Assembly (NCBI GenBank): GCA_024276995.1
Contig: JAJRWB010000053.1
Coordinates: 1-31,604 of the forward strand
Direction: 5' to 3'
Origin: Candidatus Eiseniibacteriota bacterium
Lineage (GTDB): Bacteria > Orphanbacterota > Orphanbacteria > Orphanbacterales > Orphanbacteraceae
Length of the DNA: 31,604 nt
The notes below the pieces were generated by a model. The model did no database searches, was not told the DNA's origin, and worked only from the letters and a program-made list of their open reading frames with translations. Position 1 is the first letter of the stretch. Each line of letters begins with the position of its first letter. Shown piece after piece: positions 5,056 through 31,604 of this stretch. Made by a program: the position numbers and the translations under genes.

Positions 5056-7695
5056 TTACCCGGACTGTTCGGGGAGCCTCTGTTTCAACGACACGATGGT
5101 CACCCGTTTTCCGCCGGGAAGTTCCGCCGTCTCTCCCGCTTTCTTTCCGAGAAGAGCCCTGCCCAAGGGCGCGAGGTAGGAGATCACCTCGTCTCCGTGA
5201 CGCCGATCCCCTTCCCCGAGGACCCAGTACCGAAGCGATTCCCCGTCGTCCGTTCTCAGCTCCACCTCCGCCCCAGGCCCCACTTTCTCGGGATCGAACT
5301 CGATCTCCTCGATCGGCCGGGCGAGCCGGATCCTCTGGTAGAGTTCCTCGAGCCTCTTCGTGGCGTCCTTCTGTTTCTGGCGGGCGGCGTCGTACTCGGC
5401 GTTCTCCCTCAGGTCGCCGAGTTCGCGCGCCTCCCGGATCATGCGGGGAATCGATGTCTTCAGATCCCAGTCGAGTTCCTCCACCTCTTTGCGAAGCGCC
5501 TCGATGGTGGCGACGGTCATCAGGTTCCGTCCGCCGAACGCCGCGAGGTCGTCCTCCACCGCATCGGGCCGCGCCGAGCTGCGCCTCCTTTCCACCTCTT
5601 CGGCGATCGGTTCAAGCCGCGTCCCGGCGAACGCCTCGAGGACGGGAAAGAGAAACCGCTCCGAGTACTTCCAATGGGCGAGACGGCTCGTGAGGAATTC
5701 GCGCTCCACGTCGGTGGGCTCATGTTCCGCGAGCGCCTTTCGAAAAAGGTCGGAAGAGACGAGATCGAGGGCATCCTTCCGGTGGGTCTCCTTCTCCGGT
5801 TCTTCGAGAAGATAGAGAAGGGCGTGGAGGCAATCGAGAATCCGTTCGGGGCTCGATACGGCCAGTTCCTTTACCACATGAAGAACTCCGCTCCCGCCGC
5901 GGGGACTCTTCTCGAGCATTTCAGCGACCGTCTTTTCGCGCTCTCCCCCCGGGAGAGCGCCGAGGGCGTCCCATGCGGCGCGGCGCACGGTAACGATACG
6001 CGATGTGAGCAGAAGCCCGCCCGCGACGGCGACCATGTCCGGCGGCACAATGGTGAGAAGCAGCTTCTGCTGCTCACCCGACAACGTACCCATGTCGAGA
6101 GAAGCGGCCATCGTCCGGAGCGCCGCCCGAATCCCCTCTTCATCGCCCGCGCCGACGCGATGCAACAGGAGATGGCCCATCATCCTGTCGCCGGGAGGGG
6201 TTTCCTCGCTGTTCGCCTTCTCGCCGATCTTCTCCTCGTAGCGTCTCTTCACGTCGGCGGCGCCGCCGGGATGCTGATCGAGAAAGCCGTTGAGAAGGGC
6301 GAGCGCCTTGCGGAAGTTCTTCTCCATCGACACCTCCGGAACGACCACGCCGGCGTTGTCTTCGCCGCGAAGACGGACCACCTTCCGGAAAAAACGGGAG
6401 AAATCGAAACGCTCGTCCTTTTCCGCTTTCCCCTTCGCGTTTTTCCACCACTCCGCCCACGTGGACGAAGTGAGAATGCCGAGATGGAGGAGAAGTTTCT
6501 TGATGTCGTCCCTCGACGCTTCGCCGCCGAGATGCTCGAGAACGTGGTAGAGCAGTTCGACGCGGTTCTCCCTGGCGCCGCGAAGCACGCCGTCCCTGTC
6601 GGTAAACATCTTCACCCTGAGATCGGTCGGTTCGAGAAAGAGGAGCGCCGTCGCGGCGAGACCGAGACTCATCTTATGATCCGGCTTCCCTTCGAAGCGG
6701 ATGTGCAACTTCTCGCCGTCATTATCGGTGATCCGCCCCACCCCCCAGCCGTGATGATAGACGTAGCGGCCGGCGGGTAGTTCGAGCAGCTTGTCGAGCA
6801 CGGCGAGGGCATCGTGAATATCGACGTCCGCGTTTCCCACGCCCGAGCGCTCGAACATCTTTTCAGGATGAAGAATGTCGGGATACGCCCCCGGCCCGAA
6901 GCGGGCGGCCGCGGAGCGGAGCGGCGAAGGTCCGGAGAAGCCCTCGAGGTGTTTTCGGAGGAGGGGCCACAGCTTCGCGGAAAGCCCCTCGCGGATCATC
7001 GCCTCCGAGGAGAACTCGAAAAGCGTGAGTACCTTGTCTGTTTCACCCGCCTCGAGCATCGGTTCGATCGCCGACACGAGGTGCTCGAGTTCCTCGCGCC
7101 GTGCGTCCTCGATGAGGATAAGCATCCCCTCCTCGACGCGGTCGTATTCCTTTTTTCGCGCGAACCCGGCGAGCGATCGCGCCACCAGGAGAGTGCCTTC
7201 GTCGTCGCCCTGTTCGATGAGCGAATTGCCGAGCGCCCAGAGAATCCTGTGGTCGTCTTCCGCGAAACCGTGCGAACGCCTGAGAAGATCGATGCCGGCG
7301 AACCGCGCCCCTCCCTTCTCCCACACCCGCGCGGCGAGCCGTGCGAGGGGGGCACTGCCGTTGCCGTTTCCGTCGATGGCGATGTCGAGCACTCCCGAGA
7401 GGATCTCCCAGTTCCGCTGCTGCTCCATCCTCTCGCAGAGCGAAAGGAAGAGCTTCGAGCCGATCTCTTTCGAACCGGCGAGACAATGGGTGCGGGCGGC
7501 GGCGAACTGGAGACCGGCGCCGGCGCCCTTCTTCTGAATCAGGGGGTTGACGAGCGCGAGGAGATCCTCGCTTCCACCCGCTTCGACCGCTTCCCGGACG
7601 GCGGCGTCGATCTCTTCGACGAGGTCACCGTCCAGGGGAGCCGAGCCTCCCGTGGGGTCTTCCTCCAGTTTGAGCAGATCGGTCAGTTTCTTCAT
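5056..7695 (-). CDS. Giant GreA/GreB-type transcript cleavage factor with ~720-residue N-terminal extension
   Basis: An 879-residue protein whose last ~155 residues are a complete GreA. There is an N-terminal coiled coil with the hallmark ELGDLRENAEYD, in which D761 and E764 match the acidic tip residues D41 and E44 of E. coli GreA. A C-terminal FKBP-like domain follows (PLGRALLGKKAGETAELPGG). GreA rescues backtracked RNA polymerase by stimulating transcript cleavage. The first ~720 residues are mostly helical and repeat-like. A beta-rich segment near residues 305-370 (HHGWGVGRITDNDG, then LHIRFEGKPDHKM) recalls CarD/tudor-type modules. Similar long GreA proteins are known in spirochaetes. 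The ATG at 7695 follows GGAGG and overlaps the MFS stop (ATGA). The same frame stays open far upstream, but that part lies inside the MFS gene and is not coding. Confidence 0.9.
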   Translation of the reverse strand: MKKLTDLLKLEEDPTGGSAPLDGDLVEEIDAAVREAVEAGGSEDLLALVNPLIQKKGAGAGLQFAAARTHCLAGSKEIGSKLFLSLCERMEQQRNWEILSGVLDIAIDGNGNGSAPLARLAARVWEKGGARFAGIDLLRRSHGFAEDDHRILWALGNSLIEQGDDEGTLLVARSLAGFARKKEYDRVEEGMLILIEDARREELEHLVSAIEPMLEAGETDKVLTLFEFSSEAMIREGLSAKLWPLLRKHLEGFSGPSPLRSAAARFGPGAYPDILHPEKMFERSGVGNADVDIHDALAVLDKLLELPAGRYVYHHGWGVGRITDNDGEKLHIRFEGKPDHKMSLGLAATALLFLEPTDLRVKMFTDRDGVLRGARENRVELLYHVLEHLGGEASRDDIKKLLLHLGILTSSTWAEWWKNAKGKAEKDERFDFSRFFRKVVRLRGEDNAGVVVPEVSMEKNFRKALALLNGFLDQHPGGAADVKRRYEEKIGEKANSEETPPGDRMMGHLLLHRVGAGDEEGIRAALRTMAASLDMGTLSGEQQKLLLTIVPPDMVAVAGGLLLTSRIVTVRRAAWDALGALPGGEREKTVAEMLEKSPRGGSGVLHVVKELAVSSPERILDCLHALLYLLEEPEKETHRKDALDLVSSDLFRKALAEHEPTDVEREFLTSRLAHWKYSERFLFPVLEAFAGTRLEPIAEEVERRRSSARPDAVEDDLAAFGGRNLMTVATIEALRKEVEELDWDLKTSIPRMIREARELGDLRENAEYDAARQKQKDATKRLEELYQRIRLARPIEEIEFDPEKVGPGAEVELRTDDGESLRYWVLGEGDRRHGDEVISYLAPLGRALLGKKAGETAELPGGKRVTIVSLKQRLPEQSG

Positions 7696-8930
7696 CGTTC
7701 CTCCGGGTCGGGATGTTGAACCGTACCAGATTCCTCCCCGATGCGGCAAGGGGCGGACCGTCCCTGCGGCACGCGAATCCGCAGACAGATGAAGAAGCCT
7801 GCCACGGCGATCGCGGCGGCGATCAGGAAGACCCAGCGGAACCCCCACACCTCCCAGACGTAGCCGGAGAGCACCGGCAGTGACATGGCGACGGCGTGAT
7901 CGATGGTGATCCCCAGAGAGATGCTCGGCGTGATATCGGACGGGTCCTTCACGATCTTCTTGAGATACGTCGTCCGGGCGACGCGCAGGGCGAAGAGGAT
8001 GTAGTCGAGAATGTAGGCACCGTAGAGCACCCTGAGATCCCACGGCTCAGGAAGGAGATCGGACGCGAAGGCGTATGTCAGGCAGACGAGCAGGAGGAAA
8101 AGCTCGTCCACGGCGAGCACCACCCGTTCGCCGAACCAATCGATCACGTCGCCGAGAAGGGGACGGAGAACCACACCGAGGGTGGATGAGATGAAGTAGA
8201 GGAGGGCGATGGTGGAGACCGGCACACCGTGGATCGAAACTAGAACCCACGCACCGAACACGAGGAAGATCTGTTTACGAATACCGAAGAGCGCACTGAT
8301 GGCGTAGAAGAGGGAATACTCCTTCCTGTACACGAGCCGCTTCGACCGGGGATCGCCGCGACCCACCTTGAGGGTCAGGTAAAGCAGGGCGGATACCAAG
8401 GCAAACCCGGCGGCGATCAGGAAGAAGAGCGGGAACACGTCGCCCATCAGCCTCGCCAGGAGGAAAACGACTCCCACTCCGAGGATCGTTCCGAGATTGC
8501 GGGCGCCGCCGAGCTGGCCGAGGCGCCGGCCTTCGCCGCCGCTTCTGGCGAGCTTGAGGCCGAGCGGGCCGTCCACGGCGAAGAGAATGTGATCGCCCAA
8601 CGACCATACGGCGATCCACAGGACGAGAAGCGTCGTGCTCGGAGCGAGGTGGCCGAGTCCCACGGCGCCCGCGGCGGAAAAGACCATCGCCACCGCCGCC
8701 ATCTGGCTCTCCCTGAGGCGGATCGCCAGGAGGGCCATCGTCCCGGCCAGGAGGAATCCCGGAAGCTCCCGCGGAAACTCGAGCCAGCCGCGCGCTTCGG
8801 CGCCGAGATGGTGCACCTCGGCGAGATAGTTGTTGAGCGAAGCGGTGAAAATGCCGCTCGCCGCGCCGAAGAAGAGCGTCGCGAAAAGGAGATGTATCAG
8901 CTCGCGCCTGTGGTCGGTGGGAAGAGACAT
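7692..8930 (-). CDS. Major facilitator superfamily transporter
   Basis: A 412-residue integral membrane protein with about 12 predicted hydrophobic helices and a central basic loop (GRGDPRSKRLVYRKEY) between two six-helix halves, the usual MFS plan. No substrate-specific motif is recognisable. The C-terminus is a short polar tail. It is the first gene of the minus-strand unit that continues into the GreA-like, TrmJ and aldo/keto reductase genes; its stop overlaps the GreA-like ATG by 4 bases. The ribosome site before the ATG at 8930 is weak (GAG at short distance). Classification as MFS is fairly sure; function is not. Confidence 0.85.
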   Translation of the reverse strand: MSLPTDHRRELIHLLFATLFFGAASGIFTASLNNYLAEVHHLGAEARGWLEFPRELPGFLLAGTMALLAIRLRESQMAAVAMVFSAAGAVGLGHLAPSTTLLVLWIAVWSLGDHILFAVDGPLGLKLARSGGEGRRLGQLGGARNLGTILGVGVVFLLARLMGDVFPLFFLIAAGFALVSALLYLTLKVGRGDPRSKRLVYRKEYSLFYAISALFGIRKQIFLVFGAWVLVSIHGVPVSTIALLYFISSTLGVVLRPLLGDVIDWFGERVVLAVDELFLLLVCLTYAFASDLLPEPWDLRVLYGAYILDYILFALRVARTTYLKKIVKDPSDITPSISLGITIDHAVAMSLPVLSGYVWEVWGFRWVFLIAAAIAVAGFFICLRIRVPQGRSAPCRIGEESGTVQHPDPEER

Positions 8931-10817: not shown

Positions 10818-12323
10818 ATGAGATCGTACGAATCGGTAGGCGGGGATCTCGCCGCGCTCACCGCCGCGCGAATCGGCGCCACGCTTCTCGGACTCGTCAA
10901 CATCCTGGTGATTACCACTCTCTTCACACCCGAAGAGTATGGTCGCTACTCTCTCTTTCAGATGATGGTCAATGTGGGATTGACGTTCGGAGTCTTCTGG
11001 TCGAGCGTATCGATCATCCGTTTCGGCCGGGAGGAGCTGGAAAAGAGCGGCGCCATGGGGGCGACCTTCTGGGGCCGTCTCCTGCTGCTCGGGACGAGCG
11101 CCGCGCTCTTCGCCGGCGCCGGCTATGCGCTCCGTCGCCCGATCGCGTCGTACACCGGCCTCCCCCCCTTCCTCTTTCCCTTCTTTCTCGCCACGTTTCT
11201 ATTCGTCGCCATGCTCGACCACTACCAAAGAGCGCTCCAGGCGGTCCGCCGTATGGGATCGTACGCGCTCAGCTACCTCGTCCAGATCGGAACACTCACG
11301 TTCGGCGTGCTCCTCATCGCGACGGGCCTCCTCCCCACAACTCTCCCGGTGCTCCTGGGGGTGTTCACCCTCTCGAACGGCGCGGGTTTTCTCTTCGCCG
11401 CCGCGCGGTTCCCCCCGAAGGCCGCCTCTCCCGCGAGAATCGACGGGAGGAAGATCGCCGCCATCGTCCGTTTCTCGCTGCCCCAGCTTTTCGGGTTCGG
11501 GGGAATCTACATCGTGAACTGGGTCGACATCGCGGTGATCCGCGAAATGCTCGGCACGGAAGATGTCGGCGTCTACCAGCTTGCGTACCGTTTCTTCGCC
11601 GCGCTGATCGCGCTTTCGATGGTCGCCGCCACGGTTCTCGCCCCCCTCATGGTATCGCTCCGCACGAAAGGGGAGGAATCGCTCGTACGCCGATATGCCG
11701 CCGACATGGTGCCTCTTGTCACACTCCTATTCGGAATCGCTCTCCTCGCCGCCGGTTCCGCCGCTCGGCTCGCACTTCCGGCGATTCTCCCGGACGCCTA
11801 CCTTCCGGCGCTGCCCTGCCTTCTCGTTCTTCTCGCCGCCGCGCTCTTCCGCACGCTGTCGCTCATCCTCGTGCCCGCGCTCAACGCGTACGACAAAGTC
11901 ATCGACGTGCAGGCGGTCAACGTCGGTGTCGCCGCGATCAACATCGTCCTCGATATCGTTCTCGTTCCGCGCTTCCATATTCTCGGCGCGGCGATGGCGA
12001 CGAGCATCGCCTATGCGGCGGGAACGGCGGTGCTCATCCTTCGGATGCGCCCGATCGCCCGCACGGGCGAGAGGAAACTCGTCCTCGCCCTTCTTCCGGC
12101 CGCCGCGGGGATCGTGGCCGTGGCGACGATCGCACGCCCCCTTCCCGCGTTCGCGGCGGCGGCGGGTGCGGCGGCGATCCTTCTCACGCTCGGGCGCACG
12201 GGGCGATACGTCAACGGCGCGATGTACCTCCTCGTCGAGCGGATATCCATGCCGCGGAGCGCACGCTCCGCGGCGGTGGCGCTACTCGATTTCATCGGCG
12301 CAAAGAGGACGGACAATCGATGA
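10818..12323 (+). CDS. Polysaccharide flippase family protein (Wzx/MATE-like)
   Basis: A 501-residue membrane protein with 12-14 predicted helices of the polysaccharide-biosynthesis exporter class, which flips lipid-linked sugars across the inner membrane. Typical features are the N-terminal amphipathic stretch, the TPEEYGRYSLFQ segment following helix 1 (compare lxpeeyG.ysl in this family), and the mid-protein VDIAVIREMLGTEDVGVYQLAYR. The start codon follows AGGAAAGCCGGA. It lies 66 bases after ftcD and its stop overlaps the next ATG (ATGA), so it is probably co-translated with the ABC pair. No glycosyltransferase is adjacent, so the sugar substrate is unknown. Confidence 0.88.
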   Translation: MRSYESVGGDLAALTAARIGATLLGLVNILVITTLFTPEEYGRYSLFQMMVNVGLTFGVFWSSVSIIRFGREELEKSGAMGATFWGRLLLLGTSAALFAGAGYALRRPIASYTGLPPFLFPFFLATFLFVAMLDHYQRALQAVRRMGSYALSYLVQIGTLTFGVLLIATGLLPTTLPVLLGVFTLSNGAGFLFAAARFPPKAASPARIDGRKIAAIVRFSLPQLFGFGGIYIVNWVDIAVIREMLGTEDVGVYQLAYRFFAALIALSMVAATVLAPLMVSLRTKGEESLVRRYAADMVPLVTLLFGIALLAAGSAARLALPAILPDAYLPALPCLLVLLAAALFRTLSLILVPALNAYDKVIDVQAVNVGVAAINIVLDIVLVPRFHILGAAMATSIAYAAGTAVLILRMRPIARTGERKLVLALLPAAAGIVAVATIARPLPAFAAAAGAAAILLTLGRTGRYVNGAMYLLVERISMPRSARSAAVALLDFIGAKRTDNR

Positions 12324-12976
12324 TGGATAAAGCGATTTTCGACGTGCGCCGATTGCGCGCCCTTCCGGGGCCGGGGACGCGCGAAGTGACGCTTAACTGC
12401 CGCCTCGACGCAGGGGAGATGTTCGTGATCCGCGGCCCTTCCGGGTCGGGGAAGACGACGCTTCTGCGAACCCTCGCCCGTCTCCACACCGCCGAGGGGG
12501 GAGATGTTCTTCTTCGGGGCGAGTCGTGGCGAACGATCCCGCCCAGGAAGTGGCGGCGGCGGATCGCCTATGTCCCCTCCCGTCCCCGGTTCGTGCCGGG
12601 CACGGCGGAACGGAACCTCGAACTCCCCTTCGAGCTGCGCATCGCGGAGAGAGAGACGTTTCCGAAGGAGCGTGCCGCCGAGCTTCTCAACGCCGTTCTC
12701 CTCGATGAGGCGATCCTGTCGAAGGAGACCGCCGTCCTTTCCGACGGCGAGAGGGCACGCCTTTCGCTGGTGCGCGCCCTTCTCACGGCGCCCGACGTGC
12801 TCCTCGCCGACGAGCCGACGGCGGCGCTCGACGACGAGAGCGCCCGCGCGGTGATCGTTCTTCTCGCCTCGGAGGCGGCCGGCCGGGGCCTCGCTATGAT
12901 GACCGTATCCCACGACAGTCGCCGGACGGGCGGCCTCGACGCGAAGGTGATCGATATCGGTGGAGGGGCATCTTGA
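12320..12976 (+). CDS. ABC transporter ATP-binding protein, FetA-like
   Basis: A 218-residue ATPase of an ABC transporter, paired with the UPF0014/FetB permease that follows; E. coli FetAB is implicated in iron export. Visible: Walker A GPSGSGKT (39-46), signature LSDGE (140-144, in place of the usual LSGGE), Walker B LLADEP with D-loop AALDD, and the switch histidine in TVSHD. The Q-loop glutamine is not where expected: the segment reads IAYVPSRPRF, with S87 in the usual Q position. A second ATG directly follows the first (MM), so the start may be 12320 or 12323. The stop overlaps the TTG start of the permease. Orthology to FetA rests on the neighbour, so I withhold the symbol. Confidence 0.88.
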   Translation: MMDKAIFDVRRLRALPGPGTREVTLNCRLDAGEMFVIRGPSGSGKTTLLRTLARLHTAEGGDVLLRGESWRTIPPRKWRRRIAYVPSRPRFVPGTAERNLELPFELRIAERETFPKERAAELLNAVLLDEAILSKETAVLSDGERARLSLVRALLTAPDVLLADEPTAALDDESARAVIVLLASEAAGRGLAMMTVSHDSRRTGGLDAKVIDIGGGAS

Positions 12977-13776
12977 ACGGCGTCGTCCCCCCGATCGGAA
13001 TCGGACAGCTCGCCCTCACGGTGGTGCTTGTCGTCGCCGCGGGCGCGGTGTCGGCACTCCTCAGGCTCGGCCTCCTCCGCTCCCTCCTGTGGGGCACCGT
13101 GCGGACGGTGGTGCAGCTCCTCCTGATCGGCCACGCCCTGGTATTTATTTTTTCTATTGACAATCGATACCTAGTTCTCGCCACGGTGGCGGTCATGACG
13201 TTCATCGCGGCGCATGCAGCGCGCGGCAGGACGCCCCACGTTCCCGGAGGCGCCTTCGCAGTAACCTACGTCGCGCTCTTCTCGAGCACCCTCCTCGTGT
13301 CGATCACCGTGTGCGCCCTCATCGTGAAGGCCGAGCCGTGGCACACCGCCCGTGTGGCGATCCCGATTTCCGGCATGATCCTCGGGAACGCGATGAACGG
13401 CATCGCCCTTTCCCTCGACAGGCTCGCCGCCGAAACGAGAAGTCGTTCGGGTGAAAGCGAAACGCTTCTCCTCCTCGGCGCGTCGCCGTGGGAGGCGATC
13501 CGCCGGTCGCTGCGCGAGTCGCTCCGCTCGGGAATGATCCCGACGATCAACTCGCTGAAGACGGTGGGCCTCGTATCTCTTCCCGGTATGATGACGGGAC
13601 AGATTCTCGGCGGCGTCGACCCCCTGGTGGCGGTGCGCTACCAGATCGTGGTGATGCTCATGCTCGCGGCGGCGGTGGCGATCGGAAGCCTGATTCTTCT
13701 CGCCGCCTACTATCGCCGGCTCTTCACCGAGGATGAGGCGCTCGACCCGGTGTTTCTGCGGGGAGAACGCCGGTAA
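12973..13776 (+). CDS. fetB: UPF0014/FetB-family ABC permease
   Basis: A 267-residue membrane protein of the FetB (YbbM) family, the permease partner of the preceding ATPase. Family features are GNAMNGIALSLDRL, the ATPase-contacting ETLLLLGASPWEA and SLKTVGLVSLPGMMTGQILGGVDPLVAVRYQ. About seven hydrophobic helices are visible. It starts at TTG (12973) with GGAGGGG four bases upstream and overlaps the ATPase stop. Metal specificity is inferred from E. coli FetAB and could differ. A 36-base AT-rich patch (13141-13176) encodes VFIFSIDNRYLV using codons unlike the rest of the gene. Confidence 0.88.
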   Translation: MNGVVPPIGIGQLALTVVLVVAAGAVSALLRLGLLRSLLWGTVRTVVQLLLIGHALVFIFSIDNRYLVLATVAVMTFIAAHAARGRTPHVPGGAFAVTYVALFSSTLLVSITVCALIVKAEPWHTARVAIPISGMILGNAMNGIALSLDRLAAETRSRSGESETLLLLGASPWEAIRRSLRESLRSGMIPTINSLKTVGLVSLPGMMTGQILGGVDPLVAVRYQIVVMLMLAAAVAIGSLILLAAYYRRLFTEDEALDPVFLRGERR

Positions 13777-22667: not shown

Positions 22668-23726
22668 CTACGCCTCTCCGCCGTCTCCCGGGCGGCGGCG
22701 CCTTCGCGTGGCCGCCGCGGCGGCGATACCGATCCCCTTGCGGGTCATCGAGGTGATCGGCCACCCCCCCAGTTCCTCGCGGGCGACCCAAGTCCATTCT
22801 CCCTCGCCGCACGGCGGTTCGCCGCCCGACGCGCAAAACACTTCGACATCATACCGTTCATTCATGATCGAATGGCGGAACGATCCCGACCGGACGGCGC
22901 CGGGCGCGTCACGGCCGCTCCCCTCGGGGAGTTCCCACATGCCGCCGAGACGTCCTCCCTCGGGACGGCGGCGAAGGAGGATCCTCCCGGCACCGTCGCT
23001 GAACACGAGAAGAGAGCGCCGCACGGAGCGCATGGCGGGACGCGTTCGCGGCGCCGGGCACTGCGCTACCATGTCGTTTTCGAGAGCACCGCACCGGCGC
23101 CGCACGGGGCACGAAGCGCACGCGGGGGCGGCCGGCGTACAGACCAGGGCGCCCCACTCCATGAGCGCCTGGTTGAAATCGCCCGGCCTCGCCCGGGGGA
23201 CGAGCACCGCGGCGGCGCGCCAGTAGCGGTCGCGCACACCGGCGTCGCTCCACGACTCCATTCTCGCGAAGAAGCGGGCGATCACGCGGAAGACGTTGCC
23301 GTCCAGGATCGGCGCGGAGATTCCGAAGGCGATCGAGCGGATCGCCCCGGCGGTGTAGCGGCCGACGCCGGGGAGGGCGAGGAGATCGTCCTCGTCCTCG
23401 GGAAGAACGCCGCCGTGCCGGCGCACAACGATTCCGGCCGCCTCTTTCAGGTGTCTCGCGCGACGGTAATAGCCGAGGCCGGACCAGAGGGCGAGCACGT
23501 CGTCCACCGGCGCGGCGGCGAGCGCATCGACACCGGGAAAACGGTCGAGAAAACGATCGTAGTAATCGAGCACCGTCGCCACGCGGGTCTGCTGGAGCAT
23601 GATCTCCGATACCCAGAGGGCATACGGGTCGGAGGTTCCCCGCCACGGAAGGTCACGGCGGTTCGCCCTGTACCACCGCGGAAGAACGGTTCGGAGATAG
23701 CGGATGCTGCCCGGGTCGATCGTCAT
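22668..23726 (-). CDS. mutY: A/G-specific adenine DNA glycosylase
   Basis: A base-excision repair enzyme that removes adenine opposite 8-oxoguanine. Numbered from the longer possible start (GTG at 23780), E59 (VSEIMLQQT), the hairpin LPGVGRYTAGAI (136-147), D160 (ILDGNVFRV) and a [4Fe-4S] cluster C-x6-C-x2-C-x5-C (C214, C221, C224, C230) are intact. A C-terminal NUDIX-like domain (LLRRRPEGGRLGGMWELPEG) recognises 8-oxoG. I chose the ATG at 23726 (352 residues) because the 18 codons before it have third-position bases unlike the rest of the gene. Neither start has a clear ribosome site. It is divergent from the cytochrome cluster and ends 19 bases from the sulfatase-like gene. Confidence 0.95.
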   Translation of the reverse strand: MTIDPGSIRYLRTVLPRWYRANRRDLPWRGTSDPYALWVSEIMLQQTRVATVLDYYDRFLDRFPGVDALAAAPVDDVLALWSGLGYYRRARHLKEAAGIVVRRHGGVLPEDEDDLLALPGVGRYTAGAIRSIAFGISAPILDGNVFRVIARFFARMESWSDAGVRDRYWRAAAVLVPRARPGDFNQALMEWGALVCTPAAPACASCPVRRRCGALENDMVAQCPAPRTRPAMRSVRRSLLVFSDGAGRILLRRRPEGGRLGGMWELPEGSGRDAPGAVRSGSFRHSIMNERYDVEVFCASGGEPPCGEGEWTWVAREELGGWPITSMTRKGIGIAAAAATRRRRRPGDGGEA

Positions 23727-23796
23727 GACGGGGCGAAGCGTAGCCTCGGCAAAGGGTGGTGTCAAACAAACGGTTCTCACGCCGGGAACTTATCCC

Positions 23797-23818: not shown

Positions 23819-23848
23819 ATGAGCGGGAGGTTCTCCGCGATAACATGA
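23819..23848 (+). other. Possible 9-codon upstream ORF coupled to the cytochrome cluster
   Basis: An ATG at 23819 opens a frame encoding MSGRFSAIT, and its TGA overlaps the ATG at 23845 as ATGA. The first real gene has no ribosome site at normal distance; the nearest GGGAGG is 14 bases away and lies inside this small frame. Translation of the leader could therefore deliver ribosomes to the main start. The small frame itself has no clear ribosome site, so this is speculative. Confidence 0.25.
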
Positions 23849-24750
23849 CCGGCACGGGCGAGGCACATAAGGGAAAGAAGAGGCCGCGCGCCTGGCGCGT
23901 GTTCCTCGTGGTGCTCTACACCCTTTCGGCGGCGTTCTGTATCTACCAGGCGCTCGGAGGGCTTTCGTACTACCTGACCCCCTACACTTCCCGGCCCCAT
24001 CTCGACGCGTACCGAACGCTCCGTCCCGGAGGGAGCGTGGGACACGGCTTCGGCGTCGCCGGGGGGGCGATGCTCCTCCTCCTTCTCCTCTATTCCGTGC
24101 GGAAGAGTAACCGGCTTCTTCGCGGCGCCGGACCGGTCGGGAGGTGGCTCGACATCCACATCTACTTCGGTATCTTCGGACCGCTCCTGATCATTCTTCA
24201 TACATCGTTCAAGGTCGGGGGGATCGTGGCGATCAGCTTCTGGTCGATGGTTGCGGTGGCACTCAGCGGCGTGCTCGGCCGTTTCCTCTACCGCCAGATT
24301 CCCCGAAACCTCCTCGGCGATGAACTCGGCGCGAAGGAGATCGGCGCGGCGCAGCGCGAAATCGACTCCGAACTCCGCGACCGCTTTCACCTAACGGGGC
24401 CGATGCTCGACCGCATCGATCGAGAAGCTCGCGGCGGCGCGCGGAGCGGCGGCGTATCCCTCGCGCTTGCGCTCCTACGTGGCGACCTCGGCCTCGGCAG
24501 GATACCGTGGCGCCTGGCGTCGGAGTTCTCCGGCAAACTCCCGGCGCCGAGCGACGGGGCGTCGACACTGCCCGACGTGATCCGGGCAAGGGCGCTCCTC
24601 ACGCGGCGCATCGCCCTCCTCGATCGTGTGCAGCGTCTCTTCCACTACTGGCACGTGATTCATAAACCATTCGCCTATACCATGCTGATCTTCATGATCA
24701 TCCATGTGGTCATCGCCGTGGTGCTCGGTTACAGGTGGATCTGGTCATGA
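23845..24750 (+). CDS. Predicted di-haem b-type membrane cytochrome, first gene of the electron-transfer cluster
   Basis: A 301-residue inner-membrane protein with about five hydrophobic helices. Two helices each carry a pair of histidines 14 residues apart: H105/H119 (DIHIYFGIFGPLLIILHT) and H273/H287 (IHKPFAYTMLIFMIIH). This is the geometry by which cytochrome b and ferric-reductase-like proteins hold two b haems across the membrane. Further histidines are at 67, 267 and 270. A polar, charged region (about 150-255) lies between the helix pairs. I do not recognise a named family. Its place before two multihaem cytochromes suggests it passes electrons between the quinone pool or a cytoplasmic donor and the periplasm. 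Its stop overlaps the next start (ATGA). Confidence 0.8.
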   Translation: MTGTGEAHKGKKRPRAWRVFLVVLYTLSAAFCIYQALGGLSYYLTPYTSRPHLDAYRTLRPGGSVGHGFGVAGGAMLLLLLLYSVRKSNRLLRGAGPVGRWLDIHIYFGIFGPLLIILHTSFKVGGIVAISFWSMVAVALSGVLGRFLYRQIPRNLLGDELGAKEIGAAQREIDSELRDRFHLTGPMLDRIDREARGGARSGGVSLALALLRGDLGLGRIPWRLASEFSGKLPAPSDGASTLPDVIRARALLTRRIALLDRVQRLFHYWHVIHKPFAYTMLIFMIIHVVIAVVLGYRWIWS

Positions 24751-26474
24751 TCGAGATCACCCGCACAAACGCGGCGGCATCGGTCCTCCTCTTTCTTCTC
24801 CTCCTCCCAACCGCCGCCGCCGCGCAGCTCTCGCCGGGAGAACTCCACGAATCGCACAAACAGCTGGAGGGGATCGAAAACTGCACGCGGTGTCACGAAG
24901 TGGGGAGGAAGCTTTCGCCGGCACGATGCCTCGCGTGTCACCGGATCCTGGCGGGACGGATCGAAGCGGGGGAAGGTCTTCACGCCGGCGACGAATTCGA
25001 AAAGTGCGGTTCCTGTCACGTGGATCACCAGGGAAGGGAATACGACCTCGTCTGGTGGAAAGACGGGATCGACCGGTTCGATCACCGGAAGACGGGATAT
25101 CCTCTCGAGGGGGGCCACCTCCGTCCCGCGTGCAGGGAGTGTCACCGGCCGGACCACATCCGGAACCGCGGGCGGCTCACGGCGACCGGGAAGAAGCTCG
25201 ACCGCACCTGGCTCGGCCTCGAAAAGGAGTGCACCACCTGTCACCGCGATGTTCATGAAGGCGAGCTGCCCGGGGGGTGCCTTTCGTGCCACAAGATGGA
25301 GAAGTGGCGACCGGCTTCCCTATTCGATCACCATCGCGCCCGCTTCGTGCTCACCGGTAAGCATACGGGCGTCGACTGCGCGAAGTGTCACGGTAAGAAG
25401 AGGATCGGGGCGCAAGAGCCGTCGGGAGGGGAGGGCGTCACGGTCCACTTCCGGGGAATCCCCTTCGCGTGGTGCGGCGAGTGCCATGCCGATCCCCACG
25501 AAGGTCGTCTCGGCCCGTCGTGTGAACGGTGCCACGACACGAACAGCTGGCGCGACGCCGGGGGGAAAGGTTTCGACCATACGAAAACGGCGTTCCCCCT
25601 GCTCGGCGCCCACGCAACCGTTCCGTGCGGCGGCTGCCATCGGAACGGGGCGTCCCATCGCGTTTCGAAGTTCGGAAAATGCGACGATTGCCACGCCGAT
25701 GTGCACGGCGATTCGTTCGCCGGGAGGGGTGACGAGGAGAAGTGCGCATCGTGCCATACGGTGGAGCGCTTTTCGCCGTCCACGTTTACCGTGGCGCGCC
25801 ACGACGAAACCGTCTTTCCTCTCGAAGGAGCGCATCGGGCGGCGCCGTGCGATCTTTGTCATCGGAAGGAAACGACCGGGGCCGCCACGGCGATCCTTCT
25901 TTTTCCCCGCGAACGCCCCGAATGCGACGGCTGCCACGACGATCCCCACGGCAATGCCGGAAAAGAGGAGGGGAACCGTTGCGCCGCATGCCATACGACG
26001 ACCGGCTGGGCGGATGTCGGATTCGACCATGACACGACCAGGTTTCCCCTCGCCGGCGCCCACCGGCGACTGGCATGCGCGAAGTGTCACTCCGCCCCGG
26101 GCGGGGAACCGGCCGGTCATCTCCGCTTCTCGAAGATGGCTGCACGGCCCGTGTGCGGCGATTGCCATGACGACCGGCACCGGGGCCAATTCGCCGGGGT
26201 GCAAGAGGGGGACGGGATCTCGAACGCATCTCCCAGGTGCGACAGATGTCATACCGCCGCGAACTGGATCGGCTCGCGGTTCGATCATGACACGATGGCG
26301 TCGTTCCGCCTGACGGGTGCGCACCAGCATATATCGTGCCCGTCGTGCCACCCGACGGTCGAGGATGACATCGGTCGCTATACGATCTATCGTCCATTGA
26401 AGAAGGAATGCCGGTGGCGCCACCGATCGGGCGCGGCCGAGAAACTCTCCGGGATGGAAGGAAAGAGTCGATGA
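24747..26474 (+). CDS. Exported multihaem c-type cytochrome, 19 CXXCH motifs
   Basis: A 575-residue protein with a signal peptide (SVLLFLLLLPTAAAAQ) and 19 CXXCH haem-attachment sites, from CTRCH to CPSCH. A 20th site near the C-terminus is degenerate: CRWRH (26409-26423) differs from C-x-x-C-H by one base. At least six copies of a module FDH-x(n)-FPLxGAH-x(n)-CxxCH are visible, for example FDHDTTRFPLAGAH and FDHTKTAFPLLGAH; the extra histidines are probable distal haem ligands. Such proteins act as electron wires in the periplasm or at the cell surface. I chose the ATG at 24747, which overlaps the preceding stop, over a GTG at 24735. The C-terminus overlaps the second cytochrome start (ATGA). 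Redox partners are inferred from position. Confidence 0.93.
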   Translation: MIEITRTNAAASVLLFLLLLPTAAAAQLSPGELHESHKQLEGIENCTRCHEVGRKLSPARCLACHRILAGRIEAGEGLHAGDEFEKCGSCHVDHQGREYDLVWWKDGIDRFDHRKTGYPLEGGHLRPACRECHRPDHIRNRGRLTATGKKLDRTWLGLEKECTTCHRDVHEGELPGGCLSCHKMEKWRPASLFDHHRARFVLTGKHTGVDCAKCHGKKRIGAQEPSGGEGVTVHFRGIPFAWCGECHADPHEGRLGPSCERCHDTNSWRDAGGKGFDHTKTAFPLLGAHATVPCGGCHRNGASHRVSKFGKCDDCHADVHGDSFAGRGDEEKCASCHTVERFSPSTFTVARHDETVFPLEGAHRAAPCDLCHRKETTGAATAILLFPRERPECDGCHDDPHGNAGKEEGNRCAACHTTTGWADVGFDHDTTRFPLAGAHRRLACAKCHSAPGGEPAGHLRFSKMAARPVCGDCHDDRHRGQFAGVQEGDGISNASPRCDRCHTAANWIGSRFDHDTMASFRLTGAHQHISCPSCHPTVEDDIGRYTIYRPLKKECRWRHRSGAAEKLSGMEGKSR

Positions 26475-27940
26475 GGAAGGCGCCTGCGATTCCCTTGGTT
26501 CTCCTTCTCACGGCTCTTTCGAGCGCCCCCGCCCGCAAGGGGGAGAATCCCCACGGCGATTCGATTCCCGAATGCTCCCTCTGCCACGGCACGACGAGCT
26601 GGAGCGTCCCCTCGCGGCCGGGCCGGTTCGATCACGCCACTACCGACTTTCCCCTGAGGGGCGCCCACGACGGCGTCCGATGCGCGGCGTGCCACACCGA
26701 ACTCGAGTTCCACCGTGTCGGCTCGGCGTGCGCCGATTGCCACGCCGACATTCATCGAGGCGATCTCGGCACCGATTGCACCGGGTGTCATCGTGCGGAG
26801 GGGTGGCGAAGGAGAGATGATGCCTTCGAACTCCATGCCGCCGCCGGCTTCATTCTTCTCGGGATGCACGCCCTCGCCGACTGTGAAGCGTGTCACGAAG
26901 GGCAGCAGGAGAGAGAGTACGCGGACACGCCGTTCGAGTGCGCCGGCTGCCACGTGGAGACGTACGAGGCGACCGACGATCCCCCGCACGCTTCGAGCGG
27001 CTTCGGCACATCGTGCGAGGACTGTCATCGTTTCGCCGCCGCAACGTGGAGCGAGACGGAGTTCGCCCATTCGAGCGCCTTCCCGCTCACCGGCGCTCAC
27101 GGCACGGTTTCGTGCGACGCATGCCATACCGACGGGTTCGGACCGCTTCCCACGGAGTGCATCGCCTGCCATGCGACAACCTACGAGAACACCACCGATC
27201 CGGATCACCAGGGGTACCGATTCTCCACGAGCTGCGGCGAGTGCCACGGAACCGGGACGTGGCTCTCCACGACGTGGGATCACGGCGCCGCATCCGGGTT
27301 CATCCTCTCGGGCGCGCACCGGGCGGCCGACTGCTCCGCGTGCCACGGGACGACGCCGGAACTCAGCCCCCCGGTCGAATGCTTCGACTGTCACGAATCC
27401 AACTACGACGGAACGACCGACCCCGACCACGCCGCCGCCGGCATCCCCACCGACTGCGCCGCGTGCCACACCGACCAGGCGTGGTCCCCCGCCGTGTTCG
27501 ACCATGACGCCACGAACTTTCCCCTTGCCGGCGCGCATGGGTCGCTCGAGTGCGCCGCGTGCCACGCCGCCGGCTACCAGGGAACGCCGACCGACTGCTT
27601 CGCATGTCACGAGTCGAACTACAGCGGAACGACCGATCCGAATCACGCCGCCGCCGGCTTCGGCACCGACTGCACGGCGTGCCACAACACGACCCGCTGG
27701 GATCAGACGACGTGGAATCACGACGCCGATTTCTTCCCCATCTATTCGGGAGAGCATAGGGGAAAATGGAATACCTGTGATGAATGCCACACCGATCCTA
27801 CCGACTTCGGCGTCTTCTCGTGTATCGACTGCCATGAGCACAGCAGGTCGAACACCGACGACGAGCACAACGAGGTGAGGAACTACGTCTACCAGAGCGG
27901 TGCGTGCCTCGATTGCCATCCCACGGGAAGGGGAGACTGA
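26471..27940 (+). CDS. Second exported multihaem c-type cytochrome, 19 CXXCH motifs
   Basis: A 489-residue protein with a short signal peptide (IPLVLLLTALSSAPA) and 19 CXXCH motifs, from CSLCH to CLDCH. It uses the same module as its upstream neighbour (FDHATTDFPLRGAH, FDHDATNFPLAGAH, and others; about six). It also has its own longer repeat of the form CHESNYxGTTDPxHAAAG, present in two nearly identical copies (encoded near 27393 and 27606) with a related copy upstream (CHATTYENTTDPDH). The 5' part of the frame upstream of 26471 lies in the first cytochrome and is not used; the ATG overlaps its stop. The two cytochromes probably arose by duplication and may form one wire with up to 38 haems. 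Confidence 0.93.
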   Translation: MRKAPAIPLVLLLTALSSAPARKGENPHGDSIPECSLCHGTTSWSVPSRPGRFDHATTDFPLRGAHDGVRCAACHTELEFHRVGSACADCHADIHRGDLGTDCTGCHRAEGWRRRDDAFELHAAAGFILLGMHALADCEACHEGQQEREYADTPFECAGCHVETYEATDDPPHASSGFGTSCEDCHRFAAATWSETEFAHSSAFPLTGAHGTVSCDACHTDGFGPLPTECIACHATTYENTTDPDHQGYRFSTSCGECHGTGTWLSTTWDHGAASGFILSGAHRAADCSACHGTTPELSPPVECFDCHESNYDGTTDPDHAAAGIPTDCAACHTDQAWSPAVFDHDATNFPLAGAHGSLECAACHAAGYQGTPTDCFACHESNYSGTTDPNHAAAGFGTDCTACHNTTRWDQTTWNHDADFFPIYSGEHRGKWNTCDECHTDPTDFGVFSCIDCHEHSRSNTDDEHNEVRNYVYQSGACLDCHPTGRGD

Positions 27941-27941
27941 A

Positions 27942-29666
27942 ATGCCCCGGGCGACGAAGCGGGCCGTACTCGGCCCGGCGACACTCGCCGCGGCGGCCTG
28001 GCTGATGGCCGCAGTCCCCGCGGACGCCGGCGGCGGCGACCGGCGTGACGACGGCCCTGTTGTCCGCTACGTCTCCGCCGGCCATGTCTACCTCGACGCC
28101 GGGGCCGACGGCGGACTGGCCGCAGGGGACACCGTCGAGATCTACAGGAAGGATCTCTCGATCGCCACGGCGGTGATCGACTACGTCTCGCGCCACAGCT
28201 CGACGTGCGTGCCGATACGGCGTTCCGACCACGCTCCCGAAAAGGGAGACACGGTGATCGTCGTCGGTCCGCGGGCGCGCCGGGGAACCCGCCCACTCTC
28301 TCCCCCGCCGGCGGGTCCGAGCGGTCCGCCTCTCCCACCCGGGTACGACGGTCCGATGGTCGTCACCCACGTCTGGCCGAAACATCAAGACGCAAGATCG
28401 GTGAGATCCGTCGAGACGTTCGACATCGAGCCGCGCCCTGTTCCCCGGGTGCGCCTTATCGAGGGAGTCGTTTCGCTCGAGTGGATTCATATCGACGACC
28501 GCACCGTCGCCGGCCTCGATCTCGACCGGCCGACCGCGCGCATCCGCCTGGCGGCGCCCCATCTTCTCGACGATTCGTACGCCTTCGAGATGCGCGGCCG
28601 CTTCAGACGGATCGATCGCTCCAGATCGTACGGCTCCGGCACGCACTCGAGCGAATGGCGCAACAGGCTCTACACTCTCTCCCTCTCCCGGACCACCCGG
28701 GAAAATACGTTTCGCTGGAAGGCCGGAAGAATCGTGCCGGACCGCGCCGGCGGCGCGGGCACCCTCGACGGCGTGCTCGTCGAAACCGGTATCGGCCGGG
28801 CGATCCGGACGGGGGCGTTCGCCGGTACGCTCCCGACATGGCGCGACTCCGACCCGCGAACGGCGGTGCAAAAGGGGGGCGTCTATATCGACTACCGCCC
28901 CGGCGACGTGAACGGAAGGCGTCTCGACGGTACCGTGGCGGCGGTGGGTGAATACCGAGGCAACACGACGAGCCGGGAGTATCTCTATCTTCGCTCCGCC
29001 GCCCGGTTCGGCAGGCGGTTCCGCGTCGAAGAGAGCGCCATTGTCGATGTGAACCGGTCGTGGCGCAAAGACGTCGCCCCGAGCCGCCTTTCGCTCAGTC
29101 GCCTCTATCTCACCGGGCGATTCCGCGGATCGAACGGGTTCGAGGCTTCCTTCACCGGCTACTCAAGGAAGCGGTACAGGACGTACGAGTCCCGATCGAC
29201 GGCCGACTCGCTCTTCGACGGCGCCGCCCGCGCCGGGGGAAAGCTCCGTATCGGCGCGCGCCTCCTCCGCTTCCACGTCTCCCTCGAAGGGGGGGCGCGG
29301 GAGAGGGGAAGCGGCGGGGGACCGGTGTGGACCTGGTCGGCGGCCGCCCGATCGACGGCAGTCGGCACGGCCGCATTCGGCGCGTCGCTTCGCGTCACCG
29401 GCTATTCCGGCGCCCTCTCCAGCGGCGTCCGTACCACGCTCCGGTTGAGCGCGTCGCCCGCGCCGCGTGCCGATCTCTCCCTCGGCTGGACCGGCTCGTT
29501 TTACACCCTCGACATCGACGGGAAGAGCCGAAGCGACCACACGTTGATCCCGGCCGCTTCGCTCGATCTCGGAAAGGGCGTTCGCGCCGGTGCGATCTAC
29601 GAGCGCCACTGGGGCGACGACAGGAACGAGAACCGCGTGATCATCGATATCGACAGGAAGATCTGA
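27942..29666 (+). CDS. Exported protein with SH3-like domain and probable outer-membrane beta-barrel
   Basis: A 574-residue protein with a signal peptide (LGPATLAAAAWLMAAVPADA). Residues about 40-110 (HVYLDAGADGGLAAGDTVEIY, then GDTVIVVG) resemble the SH3-like C-terminal domain of FlgT. A proline-rich linker follows (SPPPAGPSGPPLPP). The remaining ~400 residues are rich in alternating polar/hydrophobic strands with frequent Tyr, Arg and Gly turns, as expected for an outer-membrane barrel. No CXXCH is present. The ATG at 27942 is one base after the cytochrome stop and has GGGGAG eight bases upstream. By position it could be the porin that houses a cytochrome, as MtrB does for MtrA, but I see no recognisable sequence relation to MtrB/PioB. 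The barrel is an inference. Confidence 0.72.
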   Translation: MPRATKRAVLGPATLAAAAWLMAAVPADAGGGDRRDDGPVVRYVSAGHVYLDAGADGGLAAGDTVEIYRKDLSIATAVIDYVSRHSSTCVPIRRSDHAPEKGDTVIVVGPRARRGTRPLSPPPAGPSGPPLPPGYDGPMVVTHVWPKHQDARSVRSVETFDIEPRPVPRVRLIEGVVSLEWIHIDDRTVAGLDLDRPTARIRLAAPHLLDDSYAFEMRGRFRRIDRSRSYGSGTHSSEWRNRLYTLSLSRTTRENTFRWKAGRIVPDRAGGAGTLDGVLVETGIGRAIRTGAFAGTLPTWRDSDPRTAVQKGGVYIDYRPGDVNGRRLDGTVAAVGEYRGNTTSREYLYLRSAARFGRRFRVEESAIVDVNRSWRKDVAPSRLSLSRLYLTGRFRGSNGFEASFTGYSRKRYRTYESRSTADSLFDGAARAGGKLRIGARLLRFHVSLEGGARERGSGGGPVWTWSAAARSTAVGTAAFGASLRVTGYSGALSSGVRTTLRLSASPAPRADLSLGWTGSFYTLDIDGKSRSDHTLIPAASLDLGKGVRAGAIYERHWGDDRNENRVIIDIDRKI

Positions 29667-29676
29667 GAGGAACGCC

Positions 29677-31017
29677 GTGGAATCCGCTCTCACATGGCTC
29701 GCCGCCGGTGGCATCGCCTTCGCAATGTTCGCGGTCTATTTCGCCCGCTTCAGGACGAAAGTGAAGGAGGACGCCGAGCGAAAAGCGGAGGCGGTCCACC
29801 TCGGCTCCGACCGTCCCGTCGCCCAATACCCGCAGATCGACGAGCTGCAGTGCATCGGCTGCGGCGCGTGCATCGATGCCTGCCCGGAAGGGGACGTGCT
29901 CGGCATCGTCTCGGGAAGGGCGACGATCATCAACGGCCTGCGCTGCATCGGTCACGGGAGGTGCGCCGAGGCGTGTCCCGTGGGTGCGATCCGTGTCGGC
30001 ATCGGATCGACGCTGGAAAGGGACGACCTGCCGCTCTTGGGGAAGGGAAACGAGACGACCGTTCCGGGAGTCTTCATCGCCGGCGAGCTGAGCGGCTTCG
30101 CGCTGATCCGCAACGCCGTCGCCCAGGGGAAGATGGTGATCGACGAGATCGCGTCGAGGGGATGCGCGGGCGAGAGGGGCGGTATCCACGACGTGGTGAT
30201 CATCGGGGCGGGGCCGGCGGGCCTGAGCGCCGCCGCGGCGGCCGTGGAGCGAAAGCTCTCGTGCATCGTGCTCGACCAGCAGGGACCGGGCGGTACGATC
30301 CTCCAGTATCCCAGGAAGAAGCTGGTGCTCACCCGACCGATGAAAATCCCCCTCTACGGCACCCTCGACAAGAGCGAGTACTCCAAGGAGGAGCTACTCG
30401 AAGTCTGGGAAGAGGTGATCGATCGTCTCGGTATCGAGGTGCGGACAGGCTGCAGACTCACCGGTCTCGAAAGGAAGAACGACCGTCTCGAAGCGACCGC
30501 CGGCGGCGGCATCTTTCGCGGCCGCCATGTGGTGCTCGCCCTCGGTCGCCGGGGGACGCCGCGCCGCCTCGGCGTGGAGGGAGAAGACCGCTCGAAGGTG
30601 ATGTACAAGCTCCTCGACGCCGAGTCGTACGACTCCTGTCGCATCCTCGTCGTGGGCGGCGGCGACAGCGCCGTCGAGGCGGCGGCGGGCCTCGCCCGAA
30701 AAGGTGTGAACACGGTGCATCTCTCATACAGGAAGGAAAAAATCTTCCGCGTCAAGAAGAAGAACGCCGAGGCGCTCGCGCGGCTGGAGCGGTCGGGGGC
30801 GGTCGACGTCTTGTACCGGTCGAACGTCGAATCGATCGGCGAGAAGACGGTCACCCTCCGGACGCCGGACGGCCTCGTGGAGCTGGAAAACGACTATGTT
30901 TTCATCTTCGCCGGCGGCACTCCCCCCTTCGCGCTCCTGAAAGGGTTCGGCATCTCTTTCGGCGAGGGCGACGCCGGCAGCGCCGCTGGACCGCGCCGCG
31001 CCGGCGTGGTACGCTAG
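29677..31017 (+). CDS. Membrane-anchored ferredoxin-flavoprotein (thioredoxin reductase-like) oxidoreductase
   Basis: A 446-residue protein starting at GTG (29677) after GAGAGG. Order: one N-terminal helix (4-24) followed by a basic stretch, placing the rest in the cytoplasm; a 2x[4Fe-4S] domain with C59, C62, C65, C69 and C90, H93, C96, C100; a segment TTVPGVFIAGELSG (128-140); an FAD Rossmann motif VIIGAGPAGLSA (from 174); an NAD(P) motif VVGGGDSAVEAA. In ordinary thioredoxin reductase-like proteins the VPGVFxAGE segment, which contacts FAD, is at the C-terminus; here it precedes the Rossmann domain. The second cluster has His in place of its second cysteine. It probably links NAD(P)H to the membrane cytochrome of this cluster, in either direction. 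Confidence 0.88.
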   Translation: MESALTWLAAGGIAFAMFAVYFARFRTKVKEDAERKAEAVHLGSDRPVAQYPQIDELQCIGCGACIDACPEGDVLGIVSGRATIINGLRCIGHGRCAEACPVGAIRVGIGSTLERDDLPLLGKGNETTVPGVFIAGELSGFALIRNAVAQGKMVIDEIASRGCAGERGGIHDVVIIGAGPAGLSAAAAAVERKLSCIVLDQQGPGGTILQYPRKKLVLTRPMKIPLYGTLDKSEYSKEELLEVWEEVIDRLGIEVRTGCRLTGLERKNDRLEATAGGGIFRGRHVVLALGRRGTPRRLGVEGEDRSKVMYKLLDAESYDSCRILVVGGGDSAVEAAAGLARKGVNTVHLSYRKEKIFRVKKKNAEALARLERSGAVDVLYRSNVESIGEKTVTLRTPDGLVELENDYVFIFAGGTPPFALLKGFGISFGEGDAGSAAGPRRAGVVR

Positions 31018-31073: not shown

Positions 31074-31604
31074 GTGGCAGGCGTTCAGAAGAGATGGTCG
31101 AAGATCGCCGTCGTGGGGGGCGGCAACATGGGTAGCGGCATCGCGCAGAAGATCGCGACCGAGGGGCTCGACGTCGTGCTCGTCGATATCGACGACGATC
31201 GCGTCGAAGCCGGGCTCGGCCGGATCCGGTCGATGCTCGACGAGGGCGTGGCCCGGCGGATCTTCCGGCCCGAGCAGGCGGAGGCGATCCTGGGGCGGGT
31301 GAGCGGCACCGCTCGGCTCGACGACGTGAAAGACACCGACTTGGTGATCGAGGCGGTTTTCGAGGATCTCGACGTGAAGCGCGATCTATTCCGGAAGCTC
31401 GACGCCGCCTGCTCGGACGAGACGATTCTCGCCACGAACACTTCGTCGTTCTTCGTCCGCTCAGTCGCCGAGGCGACCGGAAGGGCCGACAGGGTGGTGG
31501 GCCTCCACTTCTTCTACCACCCCGCGAAGAACCGCCTCGTCGAGGTGATCCGTTGCGACGCCACGTCGGACGAAACGTTCGACGCGTGCTGGGCGCTCCA
31601 GGAG
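31074..31604 (+). CDS. 3-hydroxyacyl-CoA dehydrogenase, N-terminal part (runs off the window)
   Basis: The frame is open for 177 codons to the end of the window. It starts at GTG (31074) with AGGAGG seven bases upstream. The Rossmann motif VVGGGNMGSGIA (13-24), VIEAVFEDLDVKRDLF (91-106), TNTSS (121-125) and H145 (GLHFFYHPAKNRLVEVI) define the NAD-binding domain of 3-hydroxyacyl/3-hydroxybutyryl-CoA dehydrogenase (beta-oxidation or butyrate-type pathways). The usual HFFNP is HFFYHP here, a variant in the catalytic histidine loop. It starts 57 bases after the flavoprotein and may be a separate unit. Whether it is a stand-alone enzyme or a FadB-type fusion cannot be seen. Confidence 0.92.
   Translation, partial: MAGVQKRWSKIAVVGGGNMGSGIAQKIATEGLDVVLVDIDDDRVEAGLGRIRSMLDEGVARRIFRPEQAEAILGRVSGTARLDDVKDTDLVIEAVFEDLDVKRDLFRKLDAACSDETILATNTSSFFVRSVAEATGRADRVVGLHFFYHPAKNRLVEVIRCDATSDETFDACWALQE

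Follow-up and report, generated by a model that had tools for sequence, protein, structure and literature searches.

A PCC3-type gene set with a fifth, flavoprotein gene: a likely NAD(P)H-linked trans-envelope electron conduit found across bacterial phyla

Introduction

The PCC3 gene cluster was described in Fe(II)-oxidising and other Proteobacteria, and also in Mn(II)-oxidising bacteria (He et al. 2017, PMC5566968). Its parts are a porin, extracellular and periplasmic multihaem proteins and an inner-membrane protein of about 300 amino acids. The latter has five TM helices, with the motif SGXXG on TM4 and WX3HX13H on both TM3 and TM5, and for it two bound b haems and electron exchange with quinone have been predicted (PMC5566968). 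In S. lithotrophicus ES-1 and Sideroxydans CL21 PCC3 consists of four genes, of unverified function; Slit_0867-0870 is an example of the proteobacterial type. Both ES-1 copies are down-regulated on Fe(II) (PMC8788666), and in Sideroxydans CL21 the inner-membrane gene of one PCC3 copy rose with iron oxidation. No function of PCC3 has been tested since its description in 2017, and the point at which electrons enter it is not known. Among open-licence papers, we found none that reports a flavoprotein together with PCC3, or PCC3 in the phyla considered here.

Here, we analysed five genes near the end of a 31,604-nucleotide stretch of DNA (the window) from a Candidatus Eiseniibacteriota bacterium. 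An earlier note on this DNA had proposed that they form a trans-envelope electron conduit, in a combination matching none that was recognised. The conduit architecture is supported by the motifs, the conservation of the set, the predicted barrel and the co-occurrence of the genes. The claim of an unrecognised combination fails, as a b protein, two large multihaem cytochromes and a porin are what makes up a PCC3 cluster (He et al. 2017, PMC5566968).

Results

Five adjoining genes form the set

We named the genes, in order, b, C1, C2, bar and FP (Table 1), their starts being taken as ATG codons within longer mechanical open reading frames. That the five overlap or lie 1-10 bases apart was readily confirmed, the junctions being ATGA overlaps or else gaps of 1-10 bases. 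Upstream lies a divergent MutY-like gene (22668-23780), and downstream a 3-hydroxyacyl-CoA dehydrogenase gene which is cut at the window end, position 31604 being exactly the end of the contig; by annotation, both neighbours are unrelated to the set. The flanks of 30-odd homologous loci hold no constant extra partner gene. Cytochrome c assembly genes occur in 3 of 62 cases and two-component genes in a few.

Elsewhere the window encodes, on the minus strand, a 995-aa protein (5056-8043), whose C-terminal GreA/GreB transcription-elongation domain (residues 841-986) follows a long N-terminal part that is uncharacterised, and a 716-aa protein (44-2194) that ends in a FlgD_ig-like domain, like secreted proteins of FCB bacteria that are sorted C-terminally. 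An ABC ATPase followed by a UPF0014 (FetB-like) permease is found on the plus strand (12320-13776).

Table 1. Positions of the five genes and of their motifs and domains in the window
Feature	Position	Strand	Description
b	23845-24750	+	301-aa di-haem b protein, PCC3 inner-membrane-protein-like; inner membrane (predicted location)
b WX3HX13H motif 1	24145-24201	+	H105, H119; WLDIHx13H
b SGVLG	24265-24279	+	match to SGXXG
b WX3HX13H motif 2	24649-24705	+	H273, H287; WHVIHx13H
C1	24747-26474	+	putative exported multihaem c cytochrome; signal-peptide-like N-terminus; 19 CXXCH
C1 degenerate 20th haem motif	26409-26423	+	CRWRH where the alignment has CxxCH
C2	26471-27940	+	putative exported multihaem c cytochrome; 19 CXXCH; three-haem modules of ~73 residues
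bar	27942-29666	+	predicted exported outer-membrane barrel; signal peptide, mature from about 28029
bar N-terminal domain	28059-28265	+	predicted periplasmic beta domain, mature residues 11-79; AlphaFold2
bar linker	28272-28445	+	disordered, mature residues 82-139; AlphaFold2
bar barrel	28461-29660	+	22-stranded transmembrane beta-barrel with long strands, mature residues 145-544; AlphaFold2
FP	29677-31017	+	Fe-S flavoprotein, predicted membrane-anchored (N-terminal hydrophobic helix); proposed NAD(P)H entry subunit
FP ferredoxin part	29851-29976	+	two clusters: CxxCxxCxxxCP, then CxxHxxCxxxCP
FP FAD/NAD(P)H domain	30187-30966	+	Pyr_redox_3; no TrxR CxxC

The b protein carries the PCC3 inner-membrane signature

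The reading of b as a di-haem protein, made from its His-x13-His spacing, holds, since it contains two HX13H motifs (H105/H119 and H273/H287). It has five hydrophobic segments. Two HX13H motifs are present in 63 of 64 aligned family members and SGXXG in all 64. The sole accepted Pfam match is DUF4405, at 27.2 bits (cut-off 26.7); the ferric reductase domain PF01794 scored 15.5 bits, below its Pfam cut-off of 28, and a PDB profile search with b returned no match. Positive residues ahead of TM1, and in loops 2-3 and 4-5, suggest that the N-terminus lies inside; with such a topology, H105/H273 would be close to the cytoplasm and H119/H287 close to the periplasm.

The set recurs in many phyla

We compared 67 loci with a b relative, taken from species-representative genomes. 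The set recurs in Calditrichota, Zixibacteria, KSB1, Neomarinimicrobiota, Ignavibacteria, Bacteroidota, Latescibacterota and Marinamargulisbacteria, some of the sets being cut by contig ends, and it comes in three orders: b-C1-C2-bar-FP, FP-b-C1-C2-bar and b-FP-C1-C2-bar. Of the 42 loci that extend 8.5 kb or more beyond b, 28 have all five genes. We also surveyed 386 genomes separately and found b in 41, a strong FP in 24 and a strong bar in 15. Every one of the 24 genomes with FP also has b (Fisher p 1.6e-27, shared ancestry ignored), as do 14 of the 15 with strong bar. The genes therefore do co-occur elsewhere, and the complete loci together with the 386-genome survey rule out chance clustering.

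The four-gene composition of PCC3 without flavoprotein is not what we see in the window or in most relatives. Because FP belongs to both, we refer to the window set as a PCC3-type variant and not as PCC3 proper, an assignment made by features from the published description and not by sequence homology. A genome of a small phylum (G236) comes close to the published composition, with b, C1, C2 and barrel spread over two contigs; FP is absent at this locus, and no FP was found genome-wide at E<=1e-80.

A tblastn search against plasmids returned only Emticicia for b and C1, and nothing for bar. The cultured Emticicia oligotrophica DSM 17448 carries a complete set on its plasmid pEMTOL02 (NC_018749.1, 81299-89995; EMTOL_RS21090-21110), where it adjoins a large CcsA cytochrome c assembly gene and the barrel is annotated as hypothetical. 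A different arrangement was seen at L141 (contig C157 of G354), with b, a short barrel-like protein, FP and a C1-type cytochrome, in that order; a single frame of this cytochrome has 40 haems or more, which looks like a merger of C1 and C2.

The genome from which the window comes holds a second set of b, FP, C1 and C2, at ~10.4-18.5 kb of its contig C40 (L085). C1 has 20 haems there, and C2 has at least 52 and runs off the contig end. Contig C53 (~30.9-32.9 kb, L086) bears an end fragment of C2 and bar, also at a contig end. The two are probably one locus that was split in C2, because both breaks fall in this repetitive gene. In a quick tree, the second copy groups with genomes of the same family and the window copy falls with G089 and with relatives from other phyla, a grouping which is suggestive only.

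FP is very probably the cytoplasmic partner of b

Rossmann folds had been read in FP, and it has an FAD/NAD(P)H domain with two dinucleotide folds (Pyr_redox_3, E 3e-35). The reading of Cys clusters stands as regards two Fe-S motifs (Fer4, E 3e-11); the second is not a four-Cys motif, however, but CxxHxxCxxxCP. All 37 FPs in the alignment have its His, and 27 of them retain the second Cys of the first motif. The closest solved relatives of the flavin domain are bacillithiol disulfide reductase (Bdr/YpdA), then TrxR and TrxR-type ferredoxin-NADP reductases. TrxR models scored below their cut-offs. Outside the Fe-S motif FP lacks a CxxC, which makes thioredoxin reductase activity unlikely.

In 24 of 26 places, no more than about 10 kb separates FP from b. 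Its position in the set, last, second or first, largely follows clade in the quick tree. At L137 and L135 FP stands with b alone, with no cytochromes nearby. In two genomes, moreover, FP and b are a single polypeptide: the fusion at L150 (G282) has 753 aa, with FP at residues 27-447 and b at 468-742, and that at L143 (G181) has FP at 201-632 and b at 664-941. Since the linkage holds in three positions, and given the lone FP-b pairs and the two fusions, we conclude that FP is very probably the cytoplasmic partner of b. Long open frames of 732-759 aa around b in G391 and G393 may be further fusions of this kind. Paralogues of the FP flavin domain occur in ~770-aa frames in three same-family genomes (L014, L016 and L017 in G005, G004 and G001, respectively); they match FP only from residue ~118, with no Fe-S part aligned.

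At L148 (8510-10492) and L151 (4857-6842) relatives of b are fused to an N-terminal module which we read, from sequence, as cNMP-binding-like with several Fe-S clusters. One of these fusions lies near a 27-haem C1, and the module would be a second way to feed the same b protein. Taken together, the linkage of FP, the FP::b fusions and these cNMP/Fe-S fusions say that the b family takes or gives electrons on the cytoplasmic side through Fe-S proteins.

The cytochromes grow in three-haem steps

Both cytochromes were described as 19-haem proteins, and each does contain 19 CXXCH. Their Pfam matches are Cytochrome_C7 and Cytochrom_CIII, haem numbers rise in threes in both, and there are about 30 residues per haem. 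Among C1 relatives, 52 of 81 have 20 haems, 67 of 81 have 17, 20 or 23, and in 72 of 81 the count is 3n+2 (ancestry being shared). The window C1 counts 19 because its 20th motif is degenerate: codon 26418-26420 encodes Arg where relatives have Cys. One substituted base in the usual Cys codon would account for this; the change may be genuine, or else an error in the sequence. In the C1 alignment the haem motifs are invariant, and conserved or invariant distal His residues outside the motifs are present; these are candidate second ligands, which fits bis-His wires and not catalysts.

In the window C2 the haem spacing repeats as 33-15-25 residues. C2 length differs widely, from 8 to 73 haems per open reading frame and from 10 to 76 per complete set elsewhere, with 67-76 in the longest complete sets; 41 of 67 frames have 3n+1 haems (shared ancestry applies here as well). 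Both cytochromes have signal-peptide-like N-termini, and a simple pattern finds no lipobox-like signal on C2. We propose that C1 is periplasmic and C2 is at the surface. An AlphaFold2 model of C1 is coil-rich and of moderate confidence (pTM 0.43); it is uninformative on fold, and Foldseek and VIA-align gave nothing usable with it.

The bar product is predicted to be a 22-stranded barrel

The alternative that bar encodes a soluble beta protein is ruled out by AlphaFold2, which predicts a confident 22-stranded barrel in agreement with the earlier note. The model was built on 31 aligned relatives and has a mean pLDDT of 84 and a pTM of 0.69, with the 22 strands mostly above pLDDT 90. Foldseek matched it to outer-membrane ushers and porins (best E 5e-9, PDB), and VIA-align to TonB-dependent receptors and porins with Z about 17-21 (up to 20.6) and rmsd about 4-6 over 260-375 residues. 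Most bar relatives end in an aromatic outer-membrane signature, e.g., GYRF, and the window protein ends in DIDRKI. The only Pfam match, DUF7781, is below cut-off (E 0.044), and no MtrB-type porin was matched. The N-terminal domain bears the FlgT_C/TsaP-like motif GLxxGDxLxVxR; one relative matches FlgT_C weakly, below cut-off (E 4e-4), and a TsaP match has E 0.34.

Discussion

We consider it likely that the five genes encode one trans-envelope conduit of the PCC3 kind that includes a cytoplasmic dehydrogenase of its own, is linked to NAD(P)H and most likely runs outward. NAD(P)H as the donor, the bypass of quinones, the seating of a cytochrome in the barrel, the direction and the acceptor are what we infer here. 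FP would oxidise NAD(P)H with its FAD, and electrons would pass its two Fe-S clusters to the cytoplasmic-side haem of b (H105/H273). From the second haem (H119/H287) they would go to C1, a putative bis-His wire of the 20-haem type, built of three-haem modules and able to cross the periplasm. The 22-stranded barrel may hold a cytochrome segment at the outer membrane, and the modular, length-variable C2 would deliver electrons to an external acceptor, such as a mineral, humic matter or a partner cell. In net effect, NAD(P)H would gain an electron sink by a route around the quinones.

The outward direction is favoured by redox potential and membrane potential. The ferredoxins with CxxHxxC(x)nCP motifs examined by Child et al. 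bind [3Fe-4S] clusters of fairly high potential, -31 mV being quoted for one from M. tuberculosis (PMC6237146). If the His-type cluster of FP likewise lies well above the potential of NAD(P)H, then outward flow is favoured. A more specific reading, for which the case seems to us evenly balanced, is that of a widespread respiratory or redox-disposal complex, independent of quinones and leading from NAD(P)H to the outside. Here FP and b would form a core resembling NADPH oxidase or ferric reductase on a multihaem wire; the His-type cluster would be an invariant relay, and the surface wire would be lengthened in whole three-haem modules.

Since published PCC3 clusters and the G236 locus do without FP, this protein is not essential to the PCC3 kind. 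The same observations, including the absence of FP from the whole G236 genome at the threshold used, would suit a model in which b exchanges electrons with menaquinone, and di-haem b proteins with HX13H do often react with quinones (He et al., PMC5566968). FP would then be accessory, for instance a redox sensor or a reductase that holds b or the cytochromes in the reduced state. We find this unlikely, as the FP::b fusions, the b-FP pairs free of cytochromes and the constant linkage despite changes of order argue for direct transfer from FP to b.

Could Fe(II), a mineral or a partner cell instead feed electrons into the conduit, and FP reduce NAD(P)+ or low-potential carriers? The presence of PCC3 in bacteria that oxidise Fe(II) and Mn(II) (PMC5566968) and the behaviour of the CL21 gene during iron oxidation point this way. 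However, transfer from Fe(II) to NAD(P)+ would be strongly uphill, working against the membrane potential, and the set has no coupling device, so that inward flow appears quite unlikely. The His-type motif, which suggests a potential above that of NAD(P)H, speaks against it too. Emticicia and Lacihabitans, which are among the hosts, also belong to groups known as heterotrophs. A third view, very unlikely in our judgement, does away with extracellular transfer: C1 and C2 would store electrons in the periplasm or work with a soluble reductase, and the barrel would be an unrelated channel. It could draw on the lack of a visible sixth, surface protein and of a lipobox-like signal on C2, and on b relatives which stand elsewhere beside small multihaem proteins without a barrel. 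Nevertheless, the barrel gene touches that of C2 and is tied to the set, b being present in 14 of the 15 genomes that have it, and C2 length varies freely, as expected of a surface wire.

Returning to the NAD(P)H-linked conduit, the set is real and well conserved. It is not categorically new, and it is probably a five-part, NAD(P)H-linked variant of PCC3 that goes beyond the described range; what is new is the range of phyla and the fifth gene. A flavoprotein genetically tied, and twice fused, to a PCC3-type b protein is a candidate cytoplasmic donor, and this tie makes the question of quinone or NAD(P)H directly testable. PCC3-type conduits are extended from Proteobacteria to many mostly uncultured phyla, and their range now includes a cultured strain with a public plasmid record, E. 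oligotrophica DSM 17448.

Comparison with known systems

Among described systems, the set is most like PCC3. The window b carries the full inner-membrane signature (~300 aa, five segments, two WX3HX13H and SGXXG), the porin gene is adjacent, and the cytochromes are repeated and haem-dense (PMC5566968; PMC10734462). The near-constant multihaem protein of PCC3 has a published median of 21 haems, and C1 here mostly has 20; for the variable one the published median is 34, with up to 85, and here C2 has 10-76. Published PCC3, however, has four genes, is known from Proteobacteria and comes with a quinone-linked model, whereas here there is a fifth gene, there are other phyla, and the barrel has an N-terminal periplasmic domain. 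PCC4 (He et al. 2017) shares the di-haem b inner-membrane protein with the same motifs, and its subgroup II is linked to an Fe-S protein, but it has three small periplasmic cytochromes (4, 5 and 10 haems) and no extracellular multihaem protein.

MtrCAB and MtoAB with CymA resemble the set in working principle, a periplasmic multihaem wire held in an outer-membrane barrel. They consist of decahaem cytochromes, an MtrB-type porin and a NapC/NrfH-type quinol oxidase, none of which was found here by family models; membership is rejected, as the cytochromes of the set are 19-haem proteins and the OmcA/MtrC model reaches 19.2 bits (cut-off 209.3). Ferric reductases and NADPH oxidases likewise have NAD(P)H and FAD inside and two stacked b haems held by paired HX13H. 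In contrast, FP is separate or N-terminally fused and of the Bdr/TrxR type with Fe-S, and the proposed acceptor is a multihaem wire. The FAD/NAD(P)H domain of FP, finally, is in the same fold family as Bdr/YpdA and TrxR-type ferredoxin-NADP reductases, but FP differs from them in its N-terminal anchor, its two-cluster ferredoxin domain and the absence of a CxxC disulfide.
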